From Dehalococcoidia bacterium (GTDB taxonomy: Bacteria; Chloroflexota; Dehalococcoidia; SM23-28-2; HRBIN24), in NCBI GenBank assembly GCA_032249735.1, contig JAVVHA010000007.1, positions 1 through 64,000 of the forward strand: 64,000 bases of DNA, read 5' to 3'. Under the pieces are notes generated by a model that was not told the origin of the DNA, searched no databases, and saw nothing but the letters and a program-made list of their open reading frames with translations. Within the stretch, counting starts at the first letter, position 1. Each line of letters opens with the position of its first letter. A program made the position numbers and the translations under genes. Below are positions 8,289 through 11,728 of the stretch, in pieces.

Positions 8289-10460
8289 ATGCCACAGCGG
8301 GCCCGCAGGCGCCGTGGGCGGGTGGCCCGCCGCGGCCGGAGACGTGGGTTTCCCCGTTGGCTGCTGCGGCTGGGGGGCGCCCTGGCCCTTGGGGGAGGCC
8401 TCTCCTTCTTTTTATGGTGGGCCCTGCCGTGGCTTCTGGAGGCCTTGGGCCTAGGCCTGGCTTTGGTGGCCCTGGTCCTGGCGATAGACGTATGGGTGCT
8501 GGCGCAGCGTCCCCGTCTCAGCATGGGGGTGTGGCGTTGGTGGGGGGCTGTGCATCTGGCGGCTGTGGTGGCCTTAGGCGTGCTAGGGCAGGTGCGCCCA
8601 TCTCTCGCCTGGCGGGGCGTCTCTTGGGAAGAGGTCTCCTTTGGCGGGAAGGTAGGCGAGTTCTTGTCCGCAGAGCCATGGGGGGTGGCGGCCCTAGTCC
8701 TGCTAGCCGTGTTGGCGGTGGTCCTCACCTGGCCCCCTCTCGCCCGTACCCTTTGGCTGGGGCGACACTCGGTGTGGGCTTTCGGCCGCGGATGGGAGGC
8801 GTTGCGGCATCTCCTGATGGGACGGCGGCCTGTCGCTCCGCTGGACGAGCCGCCACCGGCAAGCCAACGCCGAGACGAAACCCCTCCCTTCCTCGCCCAT
8901 TGGGACGAGGAGTGGCCAGCTCCCGCGGCGGCCGAGACGGAGGAGGCAGTGGTTCTGGCTGCCCCCTTGAAGGATGGGTGGGAGCTGCCGCCTATGGATC
9001 TTCTGGAGCGTTCGCCGGAGGAGGGACGGCCCCCCGACAACGAGGCGCGGGCTCGCCTCATCGTGGAGACGCTGCGCAGCTTCGGGGTGGACGCCAAGGT
9101 GGTCTCCATTCAGCAGGGGCCCACCGTCACCCAGTTTGGTATCGAGCCGGGCTGGGAGGTGAAGACGCGCCAGGTGCCGGAGCGGGACGAGAAAGGGCGC
9201 ATCGTTGGCTACCGCACGGAGGTGGTATCCAGGACCAGGGTGCGGGTAAATCGTATCACGGCCCTGGCCAACGACCTGGCGCTGGCCCTGGCCGCCCCAA
9301 GCATCCGCATTGAGGCGCCGGTGCCTGGGCGACCCATCATCGGCATCGAGGTGCCCAACGTCTCCCCCTCGGTGGTGAGCCTGCGCAGCGTTATGGAGAG
9401 CCAGGCCTTCCAAAGGGTGGCGGCCCGCTCCCGTCTGGCCCTCGCCCTGGGCAAGGGAGTATCGGGGGAGCCTGTGGCCGCCGATCTAGCCAAGATGCCC
9501 CACCTGCTCATCGCTGGCGCCACTGGCTCCGGCAAGAGTGTGTGTATCAACTCCATCATCACCTGCCTGCTCATGCGCAACACGCCGGAGGAGGTGCGGC
9601 TGGTGCTCATCGACCCCAAGAGGGTGGAGCTGACCCCCTTCGCCTCCGTGCCCCATCTGGTGTTTTCCCATGTCATCGTGGAGGTGGACGAGGTGCCGGC
9701 GGTGCTGGCGGCCGTCATCCGGGAGATGGAGTCACGATATCGGGCCTTCGCCTCCTTGGGGGTTCGTAACATCGATGGGTATAACCAGAGCCCCCGCGCT
9801 CAGGAGAAGATGCCTTACTGGGTAGTGGTCATCGACGAGCTGGCTGACCTGATGCTCTCTGCCCCATACCAAGTGGAGAAGGCGCTGGTACGTCTGGCCC
9901 AGCTAGCGCGGGCCACGGGCATCCACCTCATTGTGGCCACCCAGAGGCCCTCGGTGGATGTGGTGACGGGGCTCATTAAGGCCAACTTCCCCACCCGCAT
10001 CGCCTTCGCTGTCAGCTCTCAGGTGGACTCCCGCACCATCCTGGACATGGCAGGAGCGGAGAAGCTTTTGGGGCGGGGCGACATGCTCTATATGCCCACC
10101 GATGCCTCGCAGCCGCGGCGCATCCAGGGGTGTTACGTCTCCGACGCAGAGATAGAGAGGGTAGTGAAATGGTGGGCCGATGAGCGGTTCAGCCACCTGC
10201 GGCCGCCGCCCATGGATCACCTTCTGGAGGAGACCGCGGTGGAGGATGTCCCCGAGGAGGACCCACTATTGGAGGCCGCCCGCGACCTGGCCATGCTCCA
10301 CCGCCGCATCTCGCCCCGCCTGCTGCAACGACGGCTGAACATCGGCCGTGAGCGGGCGGTGCGGCTCATACAGGCCCTGGAACGGGCAGGCATCGTGGCC
10401 CATGCCGACGACCCCATGGCCTCTCGTCGCGTCCTTGTCCATCACGACGAGGTGGTATGA
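8289..10460 (+). CDS. ftsK: DNA translocase FtsK/SpoIIIE
   Basis: Septum-anchored hexameric motor that clears chromosome DNA at division; 723 aa. The basic N-terminus (MPQRARRRRGR) is followed by roughly three to four membrane segments up to ~160, then a short acidic linker. The alpha/beta motor has Walker A GATGSGKS (~410) and Walker B VVVIDELADL (~512). The C-terminal gamma winged helix (LLQRRLNIGRERAVRLIQAL) would read polar KOPS-type sites. ATG 8289 is chosen because GGAGGTG lies 7 nt upstream; GTG 8283 overlaps the rnj stop. The short linker is as in SpoIIIE-type translocases. Confidence 0.96.
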   Translation: MPQRARRRRGRVARRGRRRGFPRWLLRLGGALALGGGLSFFLWWALPWLLEALGLGLALVALVLAIDVWVLAQRPRLSMGVWRWWGAVHLAAVVALGVLGQVRPSLAWRGVSWEEVSFGGKVGEFLSAEPWGVAALVLLAVLAVVLTWPPLARTLWLGRHSVWAFGRGWEALRHLLMGRRPVAPLDEPPPASQRRDETPPFLAHWDEEWPAPAAAETEEAVVLAAPLKDGWELPPMDLLERSPEEGRPPDNEARARLIVETLRSFGVDAKVVSIQQGPTVTQFGIEPGWEVKTRQVPERDEKGRIVGYRTEVVSRTRVRVNRITALANDLALALAAPSIRIEAPVPGRPIIGIEVPNVSPSVVSLRSVMESQAFQRVAARSRLALALGKGVSGEPVAADLAKMPHLLIAGATGSGKSVCINSIITCLLMRNTPEEVRLVLIDPKRVELTPFASVPHLVFSHVIVEVDEVPAVLAAVIREMESRYRAFASLGVRNIDGYNQSPRAQEKMPYWVVVIDELADLMLSAPYQVEKALVRLAQLARATGIHLIVATQRPSVDVVTGLIKANFPTRIAFAVSSQVDSRTILDMAGAEKLLGRGDMLYMPTDASQPRRIQGCYVSDAEIERVVKWWADERFSHLRPPPMDHLLEETAVEDVPEEDPLLEAARDLAMLHRRISPRLLQRRLNIGRERAVRLIQALERAGIVAHADDPMASRRVLVHHDEVV

Positions 10461-10489: not shown

Positions 10490-10518
10490 TTGACACCACT
10501 GGCGGGCCATGCTATATA
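10490..10518 (+). promoter_or_regulatory. Strong sigma-70-like promoter of the 10.5-kb RNA unit
   Basis: A perfect TTGACA (10490-10495), an optimal 17-nt spacer and TATATA (10513-10518). This is the best -35/-10 pair in the window. Transcription is expected to begin near 10525, 30 nt after the ftsK stop region. Confidence 0.65.
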
Positions 10519-10540
10519 GGAGGTGAAAGGAGGTGAGGCC

Positions 10541-10630
10541 GTGACCAGGCTGCACAAGCTGGTTGCGGTGCTCCAAGTGGAGATAGGAAGGCCCCGTGGA
10601 GGGACCACGGGGCAGCCCGGCGGCGCCTGA
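10541..10630 (+). CDS. Possible 29-aa leader peptide
   Basis: A GTG at 10541 follows two GGAGGTG-like sites (10519-10525 and 10529-10535), the second 5 nt away. It opens a 29-codon frame (MTRLHKLVAVLQVEIGRPRG..., ending in TGA 10628-10630). The ORF starts about 16 nt after the predicted transcription start and its second half lies in strong RNA hairpins, as in translated attenuator leaders. No run of one amino-acid codon is present, so no amino-acid sensing role is suggested. It could equally be a chance frame in a structured RNA. Confidence 0.3.
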   Translation: MTRLHKLVAVLQVEIGRPRGGTTGQPGGA

Positions 10631-10729
10631 CTGCCGCTCGAACGGTGAAGCCGGCGAAGGGATGAGCTGCCGGGATGTCCAGGCGGGCAAGCCGCCGAAA
10701 CTGGGCGGCGGTTGGGAAGCGAGGAGAAC

Positions 10730-10768
10730 AAAGGGGGCCCCGGTCAAAAGGCCGGGGCCTTTGAGTTT
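10730..10768 (+). terminator. Intrinsic terminator ending the 10.5-kb RNA
   Basis: GGCCCCGG (10736-10743), 8-nt loop, CCGGGGCC (10752-10759), flanked by AAA and followed by TTTGAGTTT. It is a strong GC stem with a broken T-tract, and the only convincing intrinsic terminator in the window besides the hairpin before icd. Confidence 0.65.
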
Positions 10769-10854: not shown

Positions 10855-11241
10855 ATGTCGGACAAGCTTTGGCGGGAAGTCCAGGAGATCCTGGAACGGG
10901 CGGAGAGGGAGAAGCCCCCCCTCAGACGGCGCTTGCGATGGCATAAGCCACATCTGTCGTTGCCCAGAGTGTCCCTTCCCAAGCCCACCTTTGGGCAGAT
11001 GCTCCTTTTGGCCCTGGGCATCATCGTGCTGGGCTATGTCTTGGGCTCCCTGGGGGACGTGGCAGGCCGGGTGCTGGTGTTAGGGGGCCTCGGGGCTTTT
11101 GCCCTCATCTTCTTCCTCTCCCTGCGGCGGGTAGGCCAGCCCCCTGAGAAGAGGTGGCGGGGCCAGCCTCTGGACCTGGGGCGTCCCAGCGTGGGGCGGC
11201 GGTTCCTGGGCTGGCTGGGAAGGTGGCGGGGCCGCCGCTGA
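10855..11241 (+). CDS. Small membrane protein of unknown function
   Basis: 128 aa. A charged N-terminal ~40 residues (SDKLWREVQEILERAEREKP, then Arg/Lys-rich) precede two adjacent membrane segments (~44-60 and ~68-84), and a basic Arg/Gly-rich tail ends in GRWRGRR. No family signature recognised. It is preceded by the structured RNA unit and its own promoter and followed by a LysM lipoprotein gene, so a cell-envelope role is possible but unproven. The ATG 10855 start has only a weak purine-rich stretch upstream. Confidence 0.65.
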   Translation: MSDKLWREVQEILERAEREKPPLRRRLRWHKPHLSLPRVSLPKPTFGQMLLLALGIIVLGYVLGSLGDVAGRVLVLGGLGAFALIFFLSLRRVGQPPEKRWRGQPLDLGRPSVGRRFLGWLGRWRGRR

Positions 11242-11326: not shown

Positions 11327-11728
11327 ATGCGCCGGTGGGCAGGTTGGTGGGGTGGGGCCCTCGTGGTGGCCCTCCTATTGGCAGCTTGCCGGGGCGGGGG
11401 GGACAAGGAGCCATCGCCCCAGGCAGGCCGCATCTCCCTCACGGACCCCCGCGCCGTGCCCACGGCCGAACCATGGTCCCAGCCTCCCCCTGTCCGCTAC
11501 TTGGAGGGTGGCCCGTTGGAGGGCAGCCCAACGCCCACGGCCACTGCCGAGGAGGGAGGGACGGCTCCTCAGGAGTGCGGCGACGTCTACGTGGTCCGGC
11601 CTGGCGATACCCTTGGCAGCATCGCCGCCCGTTGCCAGGTGGACCTTAAGAAGCTTATCGACGCCAACCCGGACATCCAGGACCCCAGCCGTATCTTCCC
11701 CGGCCAGCGGATCCGTATCCCGCGTTAG
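11327..11728 (+). CDS. LysM-domain lipoprotein
   Basis: 133 aa. The N-terminal signal peptide has a lipobox LLAAC with the lipidated Cys at residue 21. A Pro/Thr/Ser-rich disordered stretch (~25-82) follows, then one LysM domain (~88-132: VYVVRPGDTLGSIAARCQV, ending IFPGQRIRIP). LysM domains bind the glycan backbone of peptidoglycan, so this protein probably tethers the membrane to the wall or scaffolds a wall enzyme. There is no catalytic domain. ATG 11327 lies 9 nt after a TAACAT box and has no ribosome site. Confidence 0.85.
   Translation: MRRWAGWWGGALVVALLLAACRGGGDKEPSPQAGRISLTDPRAVPTAEPWSQPPPVRYLEGGPLEGSPTPTATAEEGGTAPQECGDVYVVRPGDTLGSIAARCQVDLKKLIDANPDIQDPSRIFPGQRIRIPR

Follow-up and report, generated by a model that had tools for sequence, protein, structure and literature searches.

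A predicted stand-alone RNA gene of Chloroflexota combines a micro-ORF, a short conserved peptide core and a hairpin at a set distance

The nearest known kinds of system to the element described here are arrest-peptide leaders, which act in cis, and dual-function small RNAs (sRNAs). To our knowledge, arrest peptides all control a gene in cis, and we know of no described arrest cassette that lacks such a gene. TnaC-type arrest peptides resemble the element in having a very short open reading frame (ORF), conserved C-terminal residues and an RNA structure directly behind, but the known ones act on a downstream gene in cis, whereas the element has none. Dual-function sRNAs such as SR1/SR1P (PMC8501984), VcdRP (PMC8672173) and SgrS share with it a stand-alone transcript with a promoter, a terminator and a conserved ORF of approximately 15–40 codons. 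In contrast to these RNAs, the element has a peptide whose 6–7-residue core lies at a set distance from a hairpin, and it is found phylum-wide in Chloroflexota.

Features of the locus and their conservation

The element occupies positions 10490–10768 of the window, by which we mean the whole 64,000-nucleotide stretch analysed (positions 1–64,000 of the forward strand of contig JAVVHA010000007.1, Dehalococcoidia bacterium assembly GCA_032249735.1). It is single-copy in this genome and lies behind ftsK, whose stop codon is at 10460. A preliminary description of the window had identified a non-coding structured RNA here, with a near-consensus promoter, a 9-bp helix and an intrinsic terminator, and had proposed either a new small RNA or a regulated leader. 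The features now predicted are collected in Table 1.

Table 1. Predicted features of the element, numbered by position in the window.
Feature	Position	Strand	Description	Basis
Promoter	10490–10518	+	-35 TTGACA 10490–10495, 17-nt spacer, -10 TATATA 10513–10518	Sequence and relatives
Shine-Dalgarno (SD)	10526–10535	+	AAAGGAGGTG; perfect; 7 nt upstream of start codon	
Micro-ORF	10541–10630	+	GTG start, 29 codons + TGA (10628–10630); VTRLHKLVAVLQVEIGRPRGGTTGQPGGA	
Peptide core		+	AVLQVE, codons 9–14 of the micro-ORF; Glu codon 10580–10582	
Hairpin H1	10591–10613	+	9 bp, 10591–10599/10605–10613, inside ORF; starts 8 nt after core Glu codon	
Branched 3' domain	10626–10716	+	P1 10626–10640/10702–10716; P2 10651–10656/10668–10673	Folding
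P3	10682–10686/10692–10696	+	GGCGG-GCAAG-CCGCC, 5-nt loop GCAAG	
Terminator-like stem	10733–10768	+	13 bp, 10733–10745/10750–10762; weak T-tract	Folding

The promoter hexamers and their spacing were confirmed in the sequence, and the promoter is conserved: nearly all copies from the window's order have a TTGACA-type promoter at the equivalent place, and a promoter-like site scoring at least 9/12 occurs in 25 of 35 copies compared with 4% of shuffles. This retention in relatives is better support for the predicted promoter than the hexamers alone. The SD sequence is also present in other copies. The proposed terminator held up in part: the 13-bp stem is there, but the plus-strand T-tract (TTTGAGTTT) is weak and a terminator consensus scan flagged the stem on the minus strand only. 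Relatives have terminators at the equivalent place, and approximately 25 of the 35 copies pass a strict terminator search. The predicted transcript is approximately 240 nt long, and a 250-nt region folds better than 200 of 200 dinucleotide shuffles (z = -3.76). The 9-bp helix (H1) described earlier was confirmed. The RNA is structured as proposed but not wholly non-coding, since comparative evidence indicates translation of 10541–10630.

A search of Rfam 15 found no family at gathering score, either in the window or across the 15 related loci examined, and matches to the region in a lenient scan were at chance level. The absence of a known RNA family thus stands, as does the proposal of a new small RNA that has a promoter and a terminator of its own, given a single-copy element that is conserved in relatives. 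Open-access papers on the peptide strings and on structured RNAs of Chloroflexi yielded none on this element, and a Pfam and NCBIfam profile search with the peptide returned zero families, such very short queries having little power.

Micro-ORF, peptide core and hairpin H1

The micro-ORF is the best conserved part of the element. Across 16 copies from the order, mismatch rates by codon position are 0.30, 0.22 and 0.54 (codon counts, like the pair counts below, ignore phylogeny), and third codon positions are the most variable inside each of four subgroups. Changed codons in these copies have a mean BLOSUM score of 1.72 in frame, compared with -0.32 and -0.80 for the two remaining frames; permuting columns gave -0.09 ± 0.44, and none of 500 permutations reached the in-frame value. 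By this comparative evidence the micro-ORF evolves as a protein and is predicted to be translated, and the stretch is very probably a genuine RNA gene, conserved and translated, that carries its own signals.

Peptide length varies from 12 to 38 residues across relatives, of which only approximately 6–7 residues are conserved. The core common to copies across Chloroflexota is G/A-V-W/L-Q-V-D. In most of the distant copies the ORF stops one codon after the Asp (G-V-W/L-Q-V-D-x), while in the window's order it continues for approximately 4–18 codons beyond the core. As in arrest peptides, a short translated ORF has conserved residues near its stop, with the window's order running past the core. 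All 19 copies with a core Gly, which come from GC-rich genomes, encode it by GGA or GGG, and in most copies this codon creates an SD-like GGAG or GGGG 11–14 nt upstream of the Asp codon.

Hairpin H1 follows the core closely. Measured as the longest stacked helix, it starts 5–10 nt (median 7) after the Asp/Glu codon in 31 of 35 copies, compared with 19% in shuffles; this measure was adopted after a first one, which included weak outer pairs, had placed 46% of copies within 5–10 nt and was uninformative. This helix has a mean length of 8.1 bp, compared with 5.4 bp in shuffles. The six outer pairs of H1 are kept in 33–35 of the 35 copies with several pair types, although these counts are descriptive because the pairs were picked by folding and H1 was set by hand in four copies. 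The stop codon varies from 0 to 72 nt from the Asp/Glu codon across the same 35 copies, so the constant spacing indicates that the predicted hairpin is tied to the peptide core and not to the stop.

Distribution and the branched 3' domain

Two clear matches came from a DNA-level search across 100 related genomes, one in the same genus and one in the same family, both behind ftsK and with 84–85% identity over approximately 115 bases comprising the SD sequence, the ORF and H1. The preliminary description had suggested comparing the regions downstream of ftsK in relatives. A search with the FtsK C-terminus across 25 genomes of the order showed that the element is conserved there, with an equal layout behind ftsK in the window's family (f1) and in families f4 and f5: promoter, SD sequence, an ORF of 19–33 codons, hairpin, 3' domain and terminator. 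The element is absent behind ftsK in family f2, where one genome (G012) has it behind a lipoprotein gene, with promoter, SD sequence, VTRLHALYAVLQVDMPSSL and H1. The G012 copies L169 and L171 are near-identical, share the same upstream lipoprotein gene and lie on two contigs; they reflect either a duplication or the presence of strain variants within the assembly. The stop codon differs in L171, whose ORF reads on to 28 codons.

Peptide profiles A8 and A9 picked up weak matches from further families and classes, which were judged singly. Those inside long ORFs are chance matches, and many others are real, each having an SD sequence and a tiny ORF with a GC-rich hairpin immediately after it. 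Distant peptides that end at the stop codon include L191 MVRLHKLFGVLQVDR, L183 MQIKLHALYGVLQVDS, L189 MRLHQLYGVLQIES, L205 MAQILYGVWQVDK, L206 MRYRVLLGVWQVDR, L211 MKLREIYGVWQVDS, L212 VSVRVLFGVWQIDR and L219 MTRIDFGVWQVDR. A strict peptide signature occurred 22 times in the 1.06 Mb of DNA examined, and 21 of these occurrences were judged to be family members, which shows that it seldom arises by chance. In total, the element is present in at least about 50 genomes from at least about 20 families across Chloroflexota, a lower bound counted by eye mostly from drafts with short profiles. The peptide profiles found no true match in the complete genomes of family f18. Outside Chloroflexota, coverage consisted of one pattern scan of viral contigs; its single IMG/VR hit for the strict DNA pattern fell within a long phage ORF but in a different frame, and this chance match was rejected as a sign of viral origin.

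The sequence of the 3' domain diverges fast among relatives. In the window, this domain taken by itself has ordinary stability (z = -1.09); over 35 copies the mean z is -1.8, with 32 of 35 values negative. A covariance model built from six copies (R1) recovered seven copies outside its training set with E-values from 1e-10 to 2e-3. In the resulting 13-copy alignment, 95% of cells pair and 15 of 28 pairs have changed on both sides; the covariation score is 0.393 compared with 0.04–0.13 when partners are slid, for an alignment that was fitted to the structure, which favours this score. Covariation was found in families f4 and f5. A second model (R2), searched over 393 genomes of the class, had strong matches only in 14 genomes of these two families and did not recover the window's family; on 501 bases of the window with filters off, it gave a weak score and a different pairing. 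Model R1 found no convincing match in ftsK neighbourhoods from genome contigs, several of which have the same lengths as those of genomes without the element behind ftsK. The window's family shares with its relatives only the layout, namely H1, P1 as a long closing stem, and P3 with a 5-nt loop. One copy, L194 (genome G430, approximately 1500–1650 on the element's strand), has the micro-ORF and H1 followed directly by a terminator, without the branched domain. This single copy suggests that the peptide and H1 may be the heart of the unit.

Proposed function and alternatives

Downstream genes differ between copies and many are convergent (uvrB, an acetyltransferase and others), as judged from crude ORF calling around the relatives' copies. 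This indicates that the element is a predicted stand-alone gene and not a leader. Control of a downstream gene in cis, by a leader or attenuator, would fit the same-strand membrane-protein gene found downstream in the window's family and had been proposed for this gene and the LysM gene behind it; these two genes follow the element only in that family, relatives have no constant same-strand gene downstream, as would be expected for a cis-acting leader or riboswitch, and the f2 copies lie away from ftsK. We consider a leader very improbable. The absence of a constant downstream gene also separates the element from arrest peptides that control genes in cis. The small predicted membrane protein (10855–11241, MSDKLWREVQEILERAER...) is conserved in the window's family and had no Pfam or NCBIfam match; the LysM lipoprotein gene after it is at 11327–11728.

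Comparison of the copies thus defines a predicted gene with its own promoter, SD sequence, peptide core, H1, 3' domain and terminator, and no constant neighbour. Our preferred reading, to which we assign a probability of roughly 0.5, is that this gene makes a translated regulatory RNA that acts in trans and in which the peptide core and H1 together form a programmed ribosome pause. The stand-alone gene would give a transcript that opens with the translated micro-ORF. By ribosome geometry, a ribosome with the Asp codon in its P site would have H1 at its mRNA entrance. Acting jointly, one from the tunnel and the other from ahead, the core peptide and the hairpin could then pause or arrest it, much as happens in regulatory nascent-chain leaders, and whether the ribosome is paused or released would alter how the 3' domain folds, how stable it is or how available it is. 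With no gene downstream to act on in cis, this domain would work in trans, as a regulatory RNA or as a sensor of translation. Against this mechanism, the arrest peptides known to us control a gene in cis and the element has none, the 3'-domain model misses the window's family, with which only the layout is shared, the 3' fold of the window copy is not unusual by itself, and H1 might belong to the RNA fold and have no role in pausing.

A dual-function sRNA of the SR1 or SgrS kind, whose peptide would act as a free small protein with a protein partner while the 3' RNA pairs with target mRNAs, would also account for the stand-alone transcript with its own promoter and terminator, the short ORF translated by comparative evidence, the structured 3' part, the lack of a cis target and a layout like that of SR1 and VcdRP. 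However, conservation is limited to about 6–7 residues, the fixed distance between H1 and the core is left unexplained, no conserved unpaired seed was found and L194 lacks the 3' domain; this reading is possible but rather doubtful. A plain short mRNA, with the micropeptide as sole product and hairpins that merely protect the transcript, draws on the strong codon-level constraint and the rapid divergence of the 3' domain, but is at odds with the covariation in that domain and the tying of H1 to the core, and seems unlikely. The arrangement of GGAG 11–14 nt before and H1 6–9 nt behind the Asp codon recalls the geometry of dnaX frameshifting. Nevertheless, no slippery heptamer was seen, and reading on in the -1 or +1 frame gives mostly short, unconserved stretches, which makes a programmed frameshift into a longer protein highly implausible.

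We give equally little credence to a divergent member of a known housekeeping RNA, such as tmRNA or 6S RNA. Like tmRNA (RF00023), the element is a structured RNA that holds a very short reading frame, but its ORF has its own SD sequence and start codon and no tRNA-like part was detected in it. ARAGORN called no tmRNA in the window, and the genome's tmRNA lies away from the element at C1:111927–112278, adjoining smpB, with the tag GERELALAA. The Rfam 6S model (RF00013) matches none of the 25 genomes from the window's order, which would leave room for a divergent 6S RNA, although the model also fails on 8 of 14 controls and may have low sensitivity. 6S RNA is unbranched and has no ORF, unlike the element, which also has no Rfam match. 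The small ORF of L123 contains LQVDKAR, closely resembling the WQVDKAR in the tail of E. coli SmpB (PMC8778911). Mimicry of the SmpB tail was rejected on finding that 12 Chloroflexota SmpB tails lack a W/L-Q-V-D motif, and the likeness is taken as coincidence.

The element is apparently a conserved gene of a large bacterial phylum, with no match in the RNA- and protein-family databases consulted. The shortness of its ORF, 12–38 codons, and the fast divergence of its RNA would explain why it has been missed so far. Its signature, G-V-W/L-Q-V-D-x-stop followed by a hairpin that lies 6–9 nt behind the Asp codon, can readily be sought in Chloroflexota genomes and RNA-seq data. More tentatively than the pause itself, we suggest that such elements might be phylum-wide stand-alone 'ribosome-sensing' RNAs, with the arrest-type peptide and entrance hairpin as sensor and the 3' domain as trans output. 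If the peptide and hairpin do pause ribosomes in a stand-alone transcript, nascent-chain sensing would here be separated from gene control in cis.
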